From positions 1-24,260 of IMG/VR virus record IMGVR_UViG_3300001679_000329: a stretch of 24,260 nt of DNA; one strand, 5' to 3'. The DNA comes from a virus. Shown one piece after another: positions 5,225 to 21,293 of this stretch. The position numbers and the translations under genes are program-made. The notes beneath the pieces are model-generated. The model had not been told where the DNA came from. It saw only the letters and a list, made by a program, of their open reading frames with translations, and made no database searches. Position 1 is the stretch's first letter; every line of letters starts with the position of its first letter.

Positions 5225-5484
5225 AAATATTACATAAAAACGTATTAATTAAACAGATGGAAACTGCAGAAGCAATAACTGAATCAGGATTAATTCTTAC
5301 GGGAACTTCAGAAGAAGGTATATTTCAAAAAGCGGAAATCATTTTGGTTGGAGCTGATGTTGAGTCTGATATTAAACCAGGAGATATTGCATTAGTTGCA
5401 AAAGGTTCAGCACAAGCTATTAAAGGTGATGATGGTGTAGAATATCTGTTATGTGCAGATAATAATATAGCAGCTATTCTGTGA
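5221..5484 (+). CDS. GroES-like co-chaperonin
   Basis: An 87-residue protein with the Cpn10 layout. It has an N-terminal strand VLIKQ, a mobile-loop-like segment with the hydrophobic tripeptide LIL at residues 24-26 (SGLILTG, compare GGIVLTG in GroES), the KPGD turn, and a C-terminal strand ending NNIAAIL. Bacterial GroES is about 97 residues, so this is slightly short. It probably caps host GroEL so that phage proteins fold, as gp31 of T4 does for the capsid protein, although gp31 itself is quite divergent from GroES. It starts in an ATGA overlap with gene 55, with AAGGAG at 5202-5207 inside gene 55, so the two should be co-expressed. Confidence 0.8.
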   Translation: MKILHKNVLIKQMETAEAITESGLILTGTSEEGIFQKAEIILVGADVESDIKPGDIALVAKGSAQAIKGDDGVEYLLCADNNIAAIL

Positions 5485-6236
5485 AATTAGGTATAGTAGG
5501 ATATGGTATACTTGGTAGAGCCGTATACGAGGCTTTAAAAGATTACCATGACATAACTATTATCGATCCACCAGCTGGATATGGTAATGGTATGCAATTT
5601 GGGTTTGATGCATACGTATTATGTTTGCCTACGCCATCAGACAAAGATGGTAATTGCGATTTTTCTTTAATTAGCTTTTATTTAGATCACATAACTAGTT
5701 ATGATAAAGAGACTCAAATATTGGTTAAATCAACTATACCACCCTCCGATTTACTTAGCTTAGAAAAGCAATATGATTTCTCTTATTCACCTGAATTTCT
5801 AAGGGCTGATAGTAATATAGCAGATTTTCAAAGGCAAGAGTTTGCTATCTTTGCAGGTAATGATCCAATATTTTGGTATAATCTATTGATTGATGCTAAG
5901 GTCTATATAGACAAGGTTATGTTTACTAATATGAATACAGCATCATATATTAAATATGGGATTAACACATTTTTAGCCACTAAAGTTATGTTCTTTAATG
6001 AATTAGAAGATTTGTTTGATGGTGAATTGGAAGATATTACTGGTGCCATGGCATTCGATCCACGTATAGGAACTAGTCATATGCAAGTACCAGGGCCTGA
6101 TGGTAAGAAAGGATTTGGTGGTATGTGTTTTCCTAAAGATACCAAAGCCTTTGCACTATACGCCAGGAACCAAGGTAAGCCTTTAGAGATACTTGAAAAG
6201 GTAATTGAGATTAACGAAAAAATACGAAAATGGTAG
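5481..6236 (+). CDS. Short UDP-glucose/GDP-mannose dehydrogenase-like protein
   Basis: A 251-residue member of the UDP-sugar 6-dehydrogenase family. The N-terminal Rossmann motif is GYGILG (G7, G9, G12). Family blocks STIPP, SPEFLR and YIKYGINTFLATK follow, and the catalytic-cysteine block is GGMCFPKD with C216. Such enzymes oxidise a nucleotide-linked sugar twice to the uronic acid using NAD. Full-length relatives are about 390-450 residues. This one keeps the NAD domain, the central helix and the catalytic cysteine but ends soon after, so the C-terminal nucleotide-sugar-binding domain is missing. It may act as a different kind of sugar dehydrogenase or need a partner. The start is GTG in a GTGA overlap with the GroES-like gene. 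It is the first gene of a three-gene sugar cassette. Confidence 0.8.
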   Translation: MKLGIVGYGILGRAVYEALKDYHDITIIDPPAGYGNGMQFGFDAYVLCLPTPSDKDGNCDFSLISFYLDHITSYDKETQILVKSTIPPSDLLSLEKQYDFSYSPEFLRADSNIADFQRQEFAIFAGNDPIFWYNLLIDAKVYIDKVMFTNMNTASYIKYGINTFLATKVMFFNELEDLFDGELEDITGAMAFDPRIGTSHMQVPGPDGKKGFGGMCFPKDTKAFALYARNQGKPLEILEKVIEINEKIRKW

Positions 6237-6928
6237 GATTCACCTGCAGTTCATTTGATTTATTACATGCTGGTCATGCCATGATGCTTAAAGAATGTGC
6301 TGATAATTGTGATAGATTAATCGTAGGATTGAATGTTAATCCAGTTAAGGATAATAAATATCCAGTTCAAAGCGTGGTTGAAAGGTATACACAACTAGAA
6401 GCAATTGCATATATTGATCAGATTATACCATATAATACTGAGAAGGAATTAATAGATATTCTACAACTATATCCAATTGATATTAGATTTATTGGTGATG
6501 ACTATAGAGGCAAACCGTTTACAGGTGATACTTTACCGATTGATATCTTCTATAATAGAAGGCAACACACATTTTCATCTAAAGAATTAAAAGAACGTGT
6601 GCGTAATCAAGCTGATATACTAGAAGGTAATACTGTAAAAGATAACGATACGTATAAACTAATAGACAATACAACCTTAGAAGCTATGACTATATCAACT
6701 ACTACATTGCATCCAAAGCAATCAACTAATGGACATTCACATAGCATGGAAGAAGTCTATCATTTTTTGTCTGGGACAGGTATAATATCAATTAATGATA
6801 TAGATCATTGTGCTGAAGCCGGCAAGACATTTGTAATTAAACCAGAAGAATTTCATCGAGTAAGTAATGTTAGTGCTCATGATGATTTAGCATTCTTTTG
6901 CGTATTTTCAGGAGTAAGAGACCATTGA
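6230..6928 (+). CDS. Cytidylyltransferase (TagD-like)-cupin fusion
   Basis: A 232-residue two-domain protein. Residues 1-~130 match glycerol-3-phosphate cytidylyltransferase-type nucleotidyltransferases. They contain the HxGH-type motif FDLLHAGH (residues 9-16), CDRLIVGLN, VERYTQL, IPYNTEKEL, FIGDDYRGKPFTG and RRQHTFSSKELKERV, which lines up with the C-terminal nucleotide-binding motif. Residues ~145-232 form a cupin with the canonical metal ligands H169, H171, E175 and H209 (GHSHSMEEVYHF and EEFHRVSN). The first domain should activate a small phosphorylated alcohol or sugar with CTP. The cupin could be a sugar isomerase/epimerase or a binding module. It overlaps the dehydrogenase before it and the SDR after it. 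The fusion is unusual in my experience; substrates are unknown. Confidence 0.82.
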   Translation: MVGFTCSSFDLLHAGHAMMLKECADNCDRLIVGLNVNPVKDNKYPVQSVVERYTQLEAIAYIDQIIPYNTEKELIDILQLYPIDIRFIGDDYRGKPFTGDTLPIDIFYNRRQHTFSSKELKERVRNQADILEGNTVKDNDTYKLIDNTTLEAMTISTTTLHPKQSTNGHSHSMEEVYHFLSGTGIISINDIDHCAEAGKTFVIKPEEFHRVSNVSAHDDLAFFCVFSGVRDH

Positions 6929-7638
6929 ATATATTAATGACAGGTAGCGATGGCTATATAGGATCACATTTAAAACCAGCCTTAGAAAAAGAAGGTTATA
7001 CCGTATTTGAGTTTGATGGTGATATTAGTGAATTTAAGATAGCATCATTAATATATATTGATATGGTTATCCATTTGGCTGGTAGAGCTGGTGTTAGAGA
7101 ATCATTCGATAAACCAGAAGAGTATTATAAGGTTAATGTTGAAGGATCTAAAGCGGTATTTAAAGCTTGCCATATAACAGATGTTCCAGTGATATATACA
7201 TCTTCATCTAACGCAGCAGAATGGTGGACTAATCCTTATGCTACTACAAAGAAGATTATGGAAGAAATAGCTCCTAAAAATTCATTAGGAGTGAGACCTC
7301 ACACAGTATATCCTGGCAGAGAAGACATGTTATACTGGAAGCTTAATAATGATATTGAATCAATCAAGTATATTAATACTAGACATTACAGAGACTTCAC
7401 TCATATTGAAGATTTTTGCTCTGCCCTATGTACTTTAGTCGCAAACTATGATATAATAGAACCTAGAGTTGTTGATATTGGTACTGGCCATGCTGTTAGA
7501 GTTATGTCTGTGGCTAAGAAATTTGGTTGGAAAGGCGAAGGAAGAATCGATCTAACACCAAAAGAAAGAGAAGTTACAATTGCCGATATTACAGTATTAA
7601 AAGAATTAGGATGGATAAATAAACATTACATTATATGA
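6925..7638 (+). CDS. Short NAD-dependent epimerase/dehydratase (extended SDR-like)
   Basis: A 237-residue protein with the extended-SDR pattern. The glycine motif is TGSDGYIG (G7, G10, G13), followed by MVIHLAGRAGVRES. The active-site tyrosine and lysine are Y105-A-T-T-K109, preceded by the serine-rich strand YTSSSN. The later block DFTHIEDFCSAL resembles that of UDP-glucose 4-epimerases and UDP-glucuronate decarboxylases. These enzymes act on nucleotide sugars, but this one is about 70 residues short, mainly in the substrate domain. I choose TTG 6925 as start, in a TTGA overlap with the cupin gene, because AGGAG at 6910-6914 is well placed and the Rossmann strand begins immediately (NILMTG). 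Upstream in-frame codons would add nine residues inside the cupin gene. Confidence 0.8.
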   Translation: MNILMTGSDGYIGSHLKPALEKEGYTVFEFDGDISEFKIASLIYIDMVIHLAGRAGVRESFDKPEEYYKVNVEGSKAVFKACHITDVPVIYTSSSNAAEWWTNPYATTKKIMEEIAPKNSLGVRPHTVYPGREDMLYWKLNNDIESIKYINTRHYRDFTHIEDFCSALCTLVANYDIIEPRVVDIGTGHAVRVMSVAKKFGWKGEGRIDLTPKEREVTIADITVLKELGWINKHYII

Positions 7639-16677: not shown

Positions 16678-17078
16678 AGAATACAAATGCATTAACAAGC
16701 AATCCGTTTAGTTACTTAAACGCTATTAATAATAATGTACATTATCACTTTCGTGATGATGTTATTTTAAACAAAGACTATAATGCTTTTATGATTAACA
16801 GGGGTTTATCTTACTTTCCTGATACAGTACTGTATGCAAATGAGATGAACAAATACCACCATCTAGATGGGAAACTACAATTTGACTTTCTTATAAATAT
16901 AGTTAGAAAGCGTAAAAGATTTTCCAAATGGCATAAGTCGTCTGAGTCAGATGATATTAATGCAATCAAAAGTTATTATGGATATAGCAACGAAAAGGCT
17001 CGTGATGTTTTACCGCTCTTCAATATGGATCAATTGAAAATTATAAAGGATACGGTAAATCATGGTGGAACAAAATGA
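16674..17078 (+). CDS. 62: Clamp loader small subunit gp62
   Basis: A 134-residue protein directly after gene 44 and before regA, the position of T4 gene 62. The blocks NPFSYLNAINN, FMINRGLSYFPDTVLYANEMN and IVRKRKRFSKWHK are typical of gp62-like proteins in the T4 superfamily. T4 gp62 is 187 residues, so this is a compact version. It should be the non-ATPase subunit of the gp44/62 loader. An exact TATAAATA occurs inside the gene at 16892-16899, which may be chance in AT-rich DNA. Confidence 0.85.
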   Translation: MKNTNALTSNPFSYLNAINNNVHYHFRDDVILNKDYNAFMINRGLSYFPDTVLYANEMNKYHHLDGKLQFDFLINIVRKRKRFSKWHKSSESDDINAIKSYYGYSNEKARDVLPLFNMDQLKIIKDTVNHGGTK

Positions 17079-17478
17079 TGAAATAGTGAATTGGAATTCA
17101 GAGATGATGTTAGAAGTTATATTAATGCAACCAGATGATTTTTTAAAAATCAGAGAGACCTTAACCCGAATGGGTGTAGCGTCTAAACAAGATTCAAAGT
17201 TATATCAATCTTGTCATATACTGCACAAACAAGGCAGATACTTTATCACACACTTTAAAGAACTATTTTTATTAGATGGAAAACCTTCTAATTTAACAGT
17301 TAATGATGTTGGTAGACGTAATACTATTGTGCAATTATTGTCTGATTGGGGACTATTAGAAATTGTAGATCATTCTGCAGTTGCTGATAAGACACCTCTA
17401 AATCAGATCAAGATTATTTCGCACAAGGATAAAATTAATTGGGAATTATGTCCCAAATATAATATCGGTGTAAAATGA
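17062..17478 (+). CDS. regA: RegA translational repressor
   Basis: A 138-residue protein with strong similarity to T4 RegA (122). Shared blocks include PDDFLKIRETLTRMG, SKLYQSCHILHKQGRYFI, HFKELFLLDG, DWGLLEIV and CPKYNIG. RegA binds early mRNAs near their start codons and represses their translation, including clamp and loader genes in T4. The start at 17062 adds about 14 residues before the region aligned with T4. AAGGAT lies before it; ATGs at 17101/17104 would match the T4 N-terminus better but lack a clear ribosome-binding site. It overlaps gene 62 by 17 bp and the transporter gene by ATGA. Confidence 0.92.
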   Translation: MVEQNDEIVNWNSEMMLEVILMQPDDFLKIRETLTRMGVASKQDSKLYQSCHILHKQGRYFITHFKELFLLDGKPSNLTVNDVGRRNTIVQLLSDWGLLEIVDHSAVADKTPLNQIKIISHKDKINWELCPKYNIGVK

Positions 17479-18446
17479 TTAAGGCCTTTTTCCAGGGCTA
17501 TGATCGAGTCTATGCCTGGTGGACTCTAACATTCCTGGCTTTAATAGTCGGGTTTCAAGCTTACCTTACACGTCAATTCAATGATTGGTATAAAGTCTTC
17601 TATGATGCATTAGAAGACAAAGACCAAGCAGCATTCTTAGAAAGCTTTATTAATCGAGGCGATTTTCTATTATACGACGTCACGACATGGGGATTTATTC
17701 CCCTGGCTCTATTGGCAATTCTATTGTTTGCATATACTCAGTTCATAGGCAATCGATTCAGCTTTAGATGGCGTGAAGCTATGACTAAAGAATATTTGCC
17801 TAGATGGAAGATGATGGATAACCATACAGAAGGTGCAAGTCAACGTATCCAAGAAGATACTAGGAAATTTGCATGGTACATTTGGATATTAGGAGAAGGC
17901 TTCATTAAAGCCATTATGATCTTAGTATTCTTCCTTCCAGTCTTATGGACATTAAGCGAAGGGTTTGATATACCTGGATATCTTATTTGGATTGCACTAG
18001 GAGTGAGTGTTGGTGGCCTTGGCATATCAACCATCGTTGGACGCAAGTTACCTAGACTTGAGTATAATAATCAGGTTGTTGAAGCAAGACTTAGAAAAGC
18101 ATTAGTACGGTGTGAAGATAATAAAGAGGCCCATACCAATAAACATATATTAGAGGTATTTGCTGAGATGAAAGTGAATTACTATAGGTTGTATGACAAC
18201 TATAAGTACTATTCATTATGGGAAAACCTATACTTTCAGGCTGGTGTAGTAATTCCTTACTTAATTGCAAGTCCTCAGTATTTTGCTGGACTAATCACAT
18301 TAGGTACCTTAGTACAAATTGGTAATGCCTTTGATAAGATCCATGAGTCTATGAGCTTCTTCACAGATAATTGGATGACAGTAACAGAACTTAAATCAGT
18401 GATAATTCGTTTAAAAGAATTTGAAGATGATATTAATATAACTTAG
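17475..18446 (+). CDS. SbmA/BacA-like inner-membrane peptide transporter
   Basis: A 323-residue membrane protein with the SbmA/BacA family signature FRWREAM (97-103) followed by EGASQRIQEDT (119-129). Compare FRWRTAM and EGAAQRVQEDT in E. coli SbmA. Likely membrane segments are near 14-32, 72-90, 140-160, 168-188 and 253-280. The C-terminal block DNWMTVTELKSVIIRL also matches. SbmA is ~406 residues; this lacks roughly its first 80-90 residues but retains the family core. Cellular relatives import proline-rich peptides, microcins and bleomycin using the proton gradient. A phage copy is unexpected. It could change host uptake of peptides or block a rival. It lies between regA and 43, starting in an ATGA overlap, so it is probably expressed with replication genes. 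Confidence 0.88.
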   Translation: MIKAFFQGYDRVYAWWTLTFLALIVGFQAYLTRQFNDWYKVFYDALEDKDQAAFLESFINRGDFLLYDVTTWGFIPLALLAILLFAYTQFIGNRFSFRWREAMTKEYLPRWKMMDNHTEGASQRIQEDTRKFAWYIWILGEGFIKAIMILVFFLPVLWTLSEGFDIPGYLIWIALGVSVGGLGISTIVGRKLPRLEYNNQVVEARLRKALVRCEDNKEAHTNKHILEVFAEMKVNYYRLYDNYKYYSLWENLYFQAGVVIPYLIASPQYFAGLITLGTLVQIGNAFDKIHESMSFFTDNWMTVTELKSVIIRLKEFEDDINIT

Positions 18447-18459
18447 ACTATGGAGAATT

Positions 18460-18735
18460 ATGGAAATAAAAATTATTAGATTATTAAGCGGCGAAGAAAT
18501 CCTAACTGGATGGAATGAGGAAGCCAATATAGTAGACACCCCGATCGGAATGGTAACTACACCGGAAGGCCAAATTAACTTTACACCTTACGTACCTTAT
18601 TCAGATTCAACTGAAATGGAGATACCAGATAGATCGATTCTGTGGATCGTTAATCCAACACAAGAGTTAGTAGACAAATACAAGGAGATGACAGGGCAAA
18701 TTGTAACACCGCCATTACAAAAAATAGTTGTATAA
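18460..18735 (+). CDS. Sm-like small protein, copy B
   Basis: A 91-residue protein with a strand pattern similar to the protein at 4131-4499. It has KIIRLLSGEEILTGW, then VDTPIGMV, YVPYSD and a C-terminal helix (TQELVDKYKEM). The 'xKLLxGExI' opening is characteristic of Sm-like proteins of marine phage origin. An RNA-binding role is inferred from fold resemblance. GGAG precedes the ATG. It sits 13 bp after the transporter and just before the gene 43 promoter. Confidence 0.55.
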   Translation: MEIKIIRLLSGEEILTGWNEEANIVDTPIGMVTTPEGQINFTPYVPYSDSTEMEIPDRSILWIVNPTQELVDKYKEMTGQIVTPPLQKIVV

Positions 18736-18776: not shown

Positions 18777-21293
18777 ATGAATGAAAACTTTTACTCGAAT
18801 GCCTATCGGTTTGGCAGAAATATCCGATATCTTGGTTATGAAAATGGAAAAAGGGTGCAGAGAATGGTACCCTTTTCTCCCTCCTTATACATAAAATCAC
18901 CTAAACCAAACACTAAATGGGCTTCACTGGATGGAATTCCAGTAGAACCTATTGTCTTTTCAACTATGAAAGAATCAGGAGACTTCGTAAAACAATACGC
19001 AGATGTCCCTGGCTTTAACGTATATGGCAATACGAACTACGTAGTTCAATACTTAAATGATATGTTTCCAGGTACAATCGAATGGGATCGTAACGTAATC
19101 AATGTGACTGCAATTGATATTGAAACTAAATTTGAGAATGGTTTCCCACATCCTGACATAGCTGATCAAGAAGTCACAGCTATCACATGTAAGAATAATA
19201 TTGATGATACGTATTACGTGTTTGGATGTGGTGAATATGATACAGAAAAATCTATCATGCAAACGTCTGCAGTAGAATATAAACAATGTAATGACGAACG
19301 TGAATTACTCATGAGATTTGTTATTCATATGTCAACAGTAGATATTATTACTGGTTGGAACGTAGAGTTTTTCGATATACCGTATCTAGTAAATAGAATT
19401 GGTAAGATATGTGGTCCAGATGTTCTTAAGAAGTTATCCCCATGGGGTGACATCAAGGATAATACACAACGACCTAATGCGTTTAATCCAAAGCCTAGAC
19501 CACAATTTAAGCTTATGGGTGTTACCATTTTAGATTACCTTGATCTATTTAAGAAGTTCGGTTATTCGTATGGCCCTCAAGAATCATATAAGTTAGATCA
19601 TATTGCTTCGGTAGTGCTCGGTGAACGTAAGTTATCTTATGAAGAGTTTACTGACTTGAATGATCTGCATGATAATAACTATCAAAAGTTCATTGACTAT
19701 AACATCAAAGACGTAGAAATTATCGATCGATTAGAAGATAAGATGGGTCTCATTACTCTTGCCTTAACTATGGCTTATAAGGGTGGTGTTAATTACGGTG
19801 ATGTAATGGGTACGGTAGCCATTTGGGATTCAATCATTTATAGAGATTTATCTGAACAACACATTGCTATTCCACAAAACACTGAATCATTTAAAGGTGA
19901 TTATCCTGGCGGTTACGTAAAAGAACCTCAAGTAGGAATGCATGATTGGGTATGTTCGTTTGACTTAAATTCACTATATCCATCTATTATTATGCAATAT
20001 AATATGAGTCCTGAAACTATCATTGATGGATTGGAAAGCAGTGTAAATGTGAAGTCTGTGTTAAATAAGCAGATACAGAATAATATTCCTAATACTGCAT
20101 TGGCTTGTAATGGTGTACGATTCTCTACTTCAAAGATCGGTGTACTTCCGAAAATTATCGAAGGTATGTACGGTGAACGTGTAGGCATTAAAAAAGAAAT
20201 GTTAGATGCCCAACAAAAGAAAGAGAGTGTTGACAAAACAGACATAACCGCTTTATACGCAATTGAAAAGAAGATTGCAATTGCTGAGAATAAGCAAATG
20301 GCTATTAAGATTCTACTTAACTCATTGTATGGTGCAATGGGTAATAAGTGGTTTAGATATTTTGATATGCGAATTGCAGAGGGTATTACACTTACTGGAC
20401 AAACAACTATTCAATGGGCGGAGAAACATTTAAATGGATATCTTAATAAACTACTGGATACCAATACTGATTATATCATTGCTATCGACACTGACTCTGT
20501 TTACGTTGGTCTCGGTGATCTTGTTCGTAGGGTCAATCCTAATAACCCTGTCGATTTCCTTGATAAGGTTTGTGGTGACAAATTGGAAGGTGTCCTTACT
20601 GATTGTTATGCTGATTTATATTCTCGGTTGGGCGGTAGGGCTAATAAAATGGTCATGGGTAGAGAAGTTATTGCTGATAGAGGTATTTGGACAGCTAAGA
20701 AACGGTACATATTAAACGTACATGATAATGAGGGTGTACGTTATGCCAAACCTAAGTTAAAGATTATGGGTATCGAAGCAATCAAAAGCTCAACCCCTGC
20801 CATCTGTCGACAATCTCTGAGAGATATATTCCTAACCATTATTGAGAAGGAAGAGGTTGATGTACAAAGAGAGATTGCTCAATTCAAAATAAAATTTAAC
20901 AAAGCTTCGCCAGAAGAAGTATCATTCCCACGTGGCGTAAATGATATTCGTAAGTGGGTAGATAAGAAGACTGTGTATAAGAAAGGTACACCAATCCACG
21001 TTAGAGGATCAATTCTACACAACCGTTTCATAAAGGATAAGAACTTAGGGAAAAAGATTAATAACATTGAATCTGGTGATAAGATTAAGTTTACCTATCT
21101 TAAGAAGCCAAACCCCATTAAAGAAAACGTAATTTCTTTTATAGACTTCCTTCCAAAAGAATTCAAGTTAGATCAATACGTTGATTATAATCTTCAATTT
21201 GAAAAGACATTTTTGTCTGTAATTGATCCTATCCTATCATCTGTTGGTTGGACAGCCGAGGAAGAGATATCATTAGAAGATTTTTTTAGTTAA
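18777..21293 (+). CDS. 43: Family B DNA polymerase gp43
   Basis: An 838-residue replicative polymerase (T4: 898). The 3'-5' exonuclease motifs are AIDIET with D114/E116, TGWNVEFFDIPYL, and DYNIKDVEIIDRLE. Polymerase motifs are A FDLNSLYPS (D396), B KILLNSLYG (from K511), and C IDTDS (D571, D573). The C-terminus, EEISLEDFFS, resembles the clamp-binding tail of T4 gp43. The N-terminal FYSNAYRFGRNI matches the family start, so ATG 18777 is right even though no Shine-Dalgarno sequence precedes it. The promoter -10 lies only 9 bp upstream. No intein or split is seen. Confidence 0.97.
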   Translation: MNENFYSNAYRFGRNIRYLGYENGKRVQRMVPFSPSLYIKSPKPNTKWASLDGIPVEPIVFSTMKESGDFVKQYADVPGFNVYGNTNYVVQYLNDMFPGTIEWDRNVINVTAIDIETKFENGFPHPDIADQEVTAITCKNNIDDTYYVFGCGEYDTEKSIMQTSAVEYKQCNDERELLMRFVIHMSTVDIITGWNVEFFDIPYLVNRIGKICGPDVLKKLSPWGDIKDNTQRPNAFNPKPRPQFKLMGVTILDYLDLFKKFGYSYGPQESYKLDHIASVVLGERKLSYEEFTDLNDLHDNNYQKFIDYNIKDVEIIDRLEDKMGLITLALTMAYKGGVNYGDVMGTVAIWDSIIYRDLSEQHIAIPQNTESFKGDYPGGYVKEPQVGMHDWVCSFDLNSLYPSIIMQYNMSPETIIDGLESSVNVKSVLNKQIQNNIPNTALACNGVRFSTSKIGVLPKIIEGMYGERVGIKKEMLDAQQKKESVDKTDITALYAIEKKIAIAENKQMAIKILLNSLYGAMGNKWFRYFDMRIAEGITLTGQTTIQWAEKHLNGYLNKLLDTNTDYIIAIDTDSVYVGLGDLVRRVNPNNPVDFLDKVCGDKLEGVLTDCYADLYSRLGGRANKMVMGREVIADRGIWTAKKRYILNVHDNEGVRYAKPKLKIMGIEAIKSSTPAICRQSLRDIFLTIIEKEEVDVQREIAQFKIKFNKASPEEVSFPRGVNDIRKWVDKKTVYKKGTPIHVRGSILHNRFIKDKNLGKKINNIESGDKIKFTYLKKPNPIKENVISFIDFLPKEFKLDQYVDYNLQFEKTFLSVIDPILSSVGWTAEEEISLEDFFS

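Follow-up and report, generated by a model that had tools for sequence, protein, structure and literature searches.

The window analysed here, a virus record of 24,260 bp taken in full, carries a gene of the SbmA/BacA family within a T4-like replication block. We consider it the best reading, with a probability of roughly 0.55, that this gene encodes a phage short-form SbmA/BacA (SLiPT) importer of peptides or related nutrients, driven by protons through an altered glutamate ladder. The family membership of the product is clear, and its divergence from standard members is equally so.

A short-form SbmA/BacA gene in a T4-like replication block

The replication block comprises clamp loader genes (44, 62), regA, a family-B DNA polymerase gene and 46/47-like genes. 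The sbmA-like gene lies between regA and the polymerase gene:

17062..17478, + strand: regA translational repressor, upstream neighbour (PF01818, E=1e-42)
17475..18446, + strand: phage sbmA-like gene, short-form SbmA/BacA, clade V1, 323 aa, ATG start
17475..17478, + strand: ATGA, in which the stop codon of regA overlaps the start codon of sbmA (from the sequence)
18460..18735, + strand: small DUF6561-like ORF (phrog_527), downstream neighbour, not an ATPase (E=7e-6, just under the cut-off)
18777..21293, + strand: gene 43, family-B DNA polymerase (PF00136)

The ATGA overlap makes translational coupling of regA and sbmA possible, and the preceding ORF overlaps sbmA by a similar 4 bp in L138 and L139. 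The window locus is found again, with a 100% identical protein, in other IMG/VR records (L001, L002 and L015), and its arrangement recurs at 79-96% protein identity in L003, L004, L009 and L011. The surrounding T4-like genes and this repetition bear out the view of an earlier note on this DNA that the gene resides in a phage. Elsewhere in the window, two tandem ORFs at 112-2162 (334 and 349 aa) resemble each other and, by eye, 2OG-Fe(II) oxygenases; a Pfam search at E 0.001 returned no match for either. At 5481-7638, a block of sugar-nucleotide genes lies between gene 47 and a chaperonin-10 gene (Cpn10, confirmed by profile match); it holds a dehydrogenase-like gene, an rfaE-like adenylyltransferase gene with a cupin-like end (a phrog_7878 match) and an epimerase-like gene.

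The family signature that the earlier note had recognised is confirmed by profile and structure-based comparisons. The Pfam profile SbmA_BacA (PF05992) matches the window protein at E=4e-77 (260 bits; cut-off 24) with nearly the whole profile covered, and a phmmer search of the PDB returns E. coli SbmA at E=3e-50, spanning SbmA residues 83-393. ABC_membrane_2 is a weaker Pfam match (E=6e-15). An AlphaFold2 monomer model, generated from an alignment of 34 phage and bacterial relatives, is all-helical with a mean pLDDT of 84. When this predicted model is compared with the PDB by Foldseek, the top five matches are SbmA chains (TM-score by query length 0.68-0.85), followed by Rv1819c and other type IV ABC membrane domains, and the modelled fold is that of a type IV ABC-like membrane domain. 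This domain covers all 323 aa, leaving no fused nucleotide-binding domain. In the tree, which contains long branches, the window protein falls on the SLiPT side of the split from the ABC relatives YddA/BclA with support of 100/100. It thus shares with SbmA of E. coli and BacA of Sinorhizobium (SLiPT, PF05992) a common family, the predicted fold, five of six ladder glutamates and the lack of an ATPase domain. In contrast to them it is encoded by a phage, lacks TM0, and carries Trp at the E203 position with an extra Glu four residues on. Because its glutamate ladder is incomplete, we regard it as a divergent phage variant and not as a standard SLiPT member; by its fold and most of its residues, it is predicted to work like a SLiPT.

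The phage form had been described in the earlier note as lacking the first ~80-90 residues of the bacterial protein. SbmA residues about 7-80, which form helices TM0a and TM0b, are indeed absent, but this absence is not specific to phages. Among the matches listed, TM0 is also missing from most of the closest bacterial homologues, which makes it unsound as a defining feature of SLiPTs. Most of these homologues, again among the matches listed, are 317-350 aa long and begin with a similar M-x-[KR]-[SA]-FF motif, and the closest are about 40-48% identical to the window protein. The short forms listed come from Pelagibacteraceae, SAR86, Comamonadaceae, Desulfobulbaceae, Thiomicrorhabdus, Campylobacterota and candidate-phylum bacteria. 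E. coli SbmA has the starting motif too, with TM0 placed between it and TM1. A careful tree places the TM0-bearing proteins in a single clade (100/99) that lies within the short forms, and since short SbmAs surround that clade, TM0 was apparently gained once. Judged from these sequences, the TM0 helices are probably a later addition to the SbmA/BacA family, and the phage gene bears no sign of shortening after capture. The short bacterial SbmAs around the TM0-bearing clade are those of L203, L206 and L211. A truncated bacterial protein was likewise rejected as a description of the phage gene, the short forms being widespread in bacteria and the long form looking derived. Short-form bacterial SbmAs are, among the matches listed, the nearest relatives of the window protein, equal to it in length, with the same N-terminal start and likewise without TM0; unlike it, they keep E203 (82 of 82 sampled). 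We know of no short-form bacterial SbmA that has been characterised. In the neighbourhoods compared, the bacterial short sbmA genes show no conserved operon beyond close relatives.

Phage lineages and an altered glutamate ladder

Scans of IMG/VR combined with trees, which carry out the phage survey and the phylogeny proposed at the outset, reveal that sbmA is widely shared among uncultured marine phages. Three sets were distinguished: V1, which holds the window gene (17 loci in one scan), V2 (about 50 loci) and V3. V1 and V2 branch deeply and are virus-only in the sample, with no bacterial member; each has a long stem and is monophyletic at 100/100. More than one branching order of V1, V2 and the bacterial clade fits the data (AU p 0.30 and 0.50), and long-branch attraction to the outgroup is possible in the SLiPT tree. 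V3 proteins, in contrast, keep E203, are 52-83% identical to their best bacterial match and, except for L338, are nested among bacterial short forms, which suggests repeated capture of sbmA from marine bacteria. The V3 loci, L338 and L343-L403, lie on phage or phage-classified contigs. The T4-type capsid protein Gp23 is encoded on the V2 records of L142 and L172 and on the V3 records of L338, L358, L373 and L403, with a weak match on that of L395, so at least these belong to true phages; a bacterial origin is possible for other V3 contigs. Two contigs of about 10 kb from one Rhodospirillaceae MAG (L120 and L121) carry a similar sbmA that groups with the V3 phage copies, and may be binned phage contigs.

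A search of GenBank phages found no cultured phage with sbmA. Four GenBank 'phage' hits were discounted, namely an Acinetobacter contig of bacterial appearance that was deposited twice, and two contigs that are neither annotated nor verified. These phage-labelled entries (CAKLQH020000002, CAKLQF020000003, OR850887 and MT839843) are bacterial-looking or unverified in the stretches seen, and the Acinetobacter record has threonine dehydratase, gatB and similar genes around sbmA. No earlier report of SbmA/BacA in viruses was found in the open-access PMC papers searched.

The cryo-EM structure of SbmA defines a ladder of six glutamates, E193, E203, E269, E276, E287 and E378, and losing any conserved one of them leaves SbmA inactive or severely impaired (PMC13316013). 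E203, which is required for SbmA activity, is the proposed first binding site of the proton, and protonation of E193 is tied to movement of the gate (PMC13316013). Five of the six are kept in the window protein, with Trp137 in place of E203:

17853..17855, + strand: Glu127, equivalent to SbmA E193, kept (alignment)
17883..17885, + strand: Trp137 (TGG) at the SbmA E203 position, ladder residue lost (sequence, alignment)
17895..17897, + strand: Glu141 (GAA) at the SbmA V207 position, acidic only in V1 (sequence, alignment)
18060..18062, + strand: Glu196, equivalent to SbmA E269, kept (alignment)
18081..18083, + strand: Glu203, equivalent to SbmA E276, kept (alignment)
18114..18116, + strand: Glu214, equivalent to SbmA E287, kept (alignment)
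18387..18389, + strand: Glu305, equivalent to SbmA E378, kept (alignment)

Inspection of the alignments reveals Glu at the E203 position in 110 of 110 cellular SLiPTs and in 0 of 20 ABC-type relatives. The ten distinct V1 proteins all have Trp there, the 39 distinct V2 proteins have Gln (34), Glu (4) or Asn (1), and all V3 proteins inspected have Glu, where sequences from one clade are non-independent observations. V3, found in the wider scan, contradicts a general lack of E203 among phage copies. The tree requires two Glu/non-Glu changes at this position, which could be either two losses or a single loss plus a reversal. E193, E269, E276 and E287 are Glu throughout V1 and V2; at E378, V1 has Glu and V2 mostly Asp. 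That is to say, the loss of essential residues from all phage homologues, named at the outset as the outcome that would speak against transport, holds for E203 in V1 and most of V2 but not in V3, and the other five residues are mostly kept. The full ladder is also not universal in bacteria, where E269 is replaced in 15 of 27 long forms and E378 in 6 of 109 proteins besides EcSbmA. Tyr368 of the central gate is Phe in the window protein, as is common in bacterial members. The V207 position is Glu in 10 of 10 V1 proteins and acidic in no sampled cellular protein; four residues correspond to about one helical turn, and Glu141 may for that reason stand in for E203.

That V1 and most V2 proteins have lost E203 could be the mark of a disabled transporter. 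The phage protein would then act as a decoy or dominant-negative partner that pairs with or replaces the host short-form SbmA and lowers uptake, which would shield the infected cell from antimicrobial peptides or save proton motive force. Likely marine hosts, such as Pelagibacteraceae and SAR86, do encode a short-form SbmA. The remaining ladder residues are kept, however, Glu141 has been gained and is invariant in V1, V3 retains E203, and an identity of about 40-48% to the bacterial short forms (among the matches listed) makes mixed dimers uncertain, so that we regard this explanation as unlikely. The same loss, at the proposed site of proton entry (PMC13316013), could instead yield an uncoupled channel or proton leak that alters host energetics or excludes superinfecting phages, and a MotA/ExbB-type proton-channel gene is also frequent at V2 loci. 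Against such a leak, which we hold to be decidedly unlikely, E193 is invariant and the predicted fold is that of a transporter.

A half ABC transporter, in which the membrane domain works with a host or phage ATPase in the manner of YddA/BclA/Rv1819c, is very improbable. Those transporters have a related six-helix membrane domain, the weaker ABC_membrane_2 match points toward them, and the V1 and V2 branches are deep. In contrast to the window protein, they possess a nucleotide-binding domain, and they have no counterpart of E203 and in most cases none of E287 (PMC13316013). The E287 position is Glu in the window protein, as in all cellular SLiPTs sampled, and is rarely so in ABC relatives, which mostly have Arg. 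In addition, the SLiPT side of the tree is chosen at full support, the protein holds no ATPase domain, and none was recognised in its immediate neighbours (regA and the DUF6561-like ORF).

Spread between phages and gene neighbourhoods

The gene had been said to interrupt the regA-43 neighbourhood; it does lie between these genes in the window, but that neighbourhood is not fixed. Copies 81-83% identical to the window protein sit directly after gene 46 in L005, L010 and L017, whose 46, 47, peptidase, cobS-like and clamp proteins are just 32-49% identical to those of the window. In L006-L008, an 82% identical SbmA occurs in a phage with a family-A DNA polymerase and a gene 46 product of 25% identity. 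Conversely, UvsW and gp47 of L026-L031 are 58-73% identical to the window's, yet their SbmA is 39% identical and encoded elsewhere in the genome. Further copies follow topoisomerase and ligase genes (L138) or overlap a queC gene (L139). In another phage, the regA-43 interval holds other accessory genes, for example hsp20, and is therefore a general insertion site. sbmA has thus spread between unrelated phages, with regA-43 as one of several sites. The dN/dS of the window copy is 0.04-0.08 in unsaturated comparisons, the range of regA and gene 44, and the gene is under strong purifying selection. As a recurrent accessory phage gene under such selection, it is a candidate auxiliary metabolic (nutrient-uptake) gene. 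An assembly contaminant, recent in the wording of the earlier note, or a decaying passenger gene is scarcely credible: such errors exist, as the four GenBank hits illustrate, but identical junctions in several records, phage neighbours, Gp23 on V2 and V3 records and the absence of bacterial relatives above about 48% identity among the matches listed oppose contamination, and locus recurrence with low dN/dS indicates neither contamination nor decay.

The V2 loci, about 50 in all and exemplified by L158:5046-7979, present a recurrent cassette of c1, c4, c2, c3 and c5 around sbmA, in which c3 is a membrane protein and c5 is small; some loci add the ClpP c6 (a PF00574 match). In 49 of the 50 loci having an upstream ORF, the gene immediately before sbmA is c1. 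The AlphaFold2 model of its product (pLDDT 85) combines a long N-terminal helix with a domain for which ClpP structures make up all of the best PDB matches. Ser175 and His198 are invariant in 27 of 27 c1 members, and the c1 profile aligns with the phage ClpP-like c6 (probability 93, E=3e-7). One hydrophobic helix and the charge pattern suggest that the c1 domain is periplasmic and membrane-anchored. c4, c2 and c3 are near sbmA in 31 of 50 loci. c4 matches MotA_ExbB in 22 of 22 members, and c2, for which profile searches returned no significant family match, has one predicted helix with an invariant Asp just before it, in outline like ExbD/MotB-type partners. No cassette gene was found near sbmA in the bacterial loci compared, and searches for c1 and c4 found none in cultured phages and none in V1 records, which are fragments. 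By its neighbourhood, a ClpP-like protein beside a peptide importer suggests peptide scavenging.

V1 loci have other neighbours. Several of their source metagenomes presumably sample hydrothermal plumes or vents. L132 has a TctA permease gene (PF01970, E=3e-87) whose start overlaps the stop of sbmA; the ORF after it, which has no Pfam match, resembles a periplasmic binding protein by eye. In L003 and L009, too, sbmA is followed by TctA. This adjacency favours uptake as a theme at the V1 locus. In SUP05 single cells, tctA was listed as an auxiliary gene of viral contigs (PMC4164917), and pstS and amt are phage-borne importer auxiliary genes (PMC6359870). These are likewise importers of marine phages, tctA even adjoining the sbmA of V1 relatives, but they belong to families other than SbmA/BacA. 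Separately, L132:11683-16005 and L139:2036-8001 carry 7-deazaguanine-type genes beside sbmA, namely FolE (PF01227), QueD/PTPS (PF01242), QueC (PF06508) and a phrog_19058 protein that is DpdA-like by eye, which probably serve DNA modification.

Proposed role of the phage transporter

Under the importer reading, the SbmA-like protein would probably be made together with the replication proteins and enter the host inner membrane as a dimer, as SbmA does. There it may import small molecules, of which short peptides or nutrients resembling peptides are the likeliest, and so keep the infected cell feeding phage synthesis. Protons would drive this transport through the ladder altered in V1, with Trp137 for E203 and Glu141 one turn on. 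Import of nutrients or peptides had been among the roles first put forward, and as a putative function it gains from the purifying selection, the spread between unrelated phages, TctA downstream in V1 and the ClpP-like protein upstream in V2. We also count in its favour that T4-type phages carry a bacterial-type sbmA with a full ladder (V3). Trp at E203, Phe at Tyr368 and V1 records without a ClpP-like partner count against it. For the further suggestion that the gene sensitises the host to a competitor's toxin, no support was found.

More tentatively, V1 and V2 could be old virus-only SLiPT lineages with rebuilt proton coupling, V2 encoding a peptide-scavenging unit for amino acid supply; we see this extension as possible but rather doubtful. 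The unit would consist of a membrane-anchored periplasmic ClpP-like protease, the SbmA-type importer, a MotA/ExbB-type channel with its one-helix partner and sometimes ClpP. A cell infected by a V2 phage would be made to digest periplasmic or external protein and to import it as amino acids for phage production.

SbmA/BacA has as yet no clear natural role (PMC13316013), and strong selection on the transporter in unrelated phages argues for a nutritional one. The phage variants at E203 offer a natural test of the proton-ladder mechanism. Phage SbmA also bears on what phages gain from peptide import and, if import is true, peptide uptake would join the functions that marine phages supply to infected cells.
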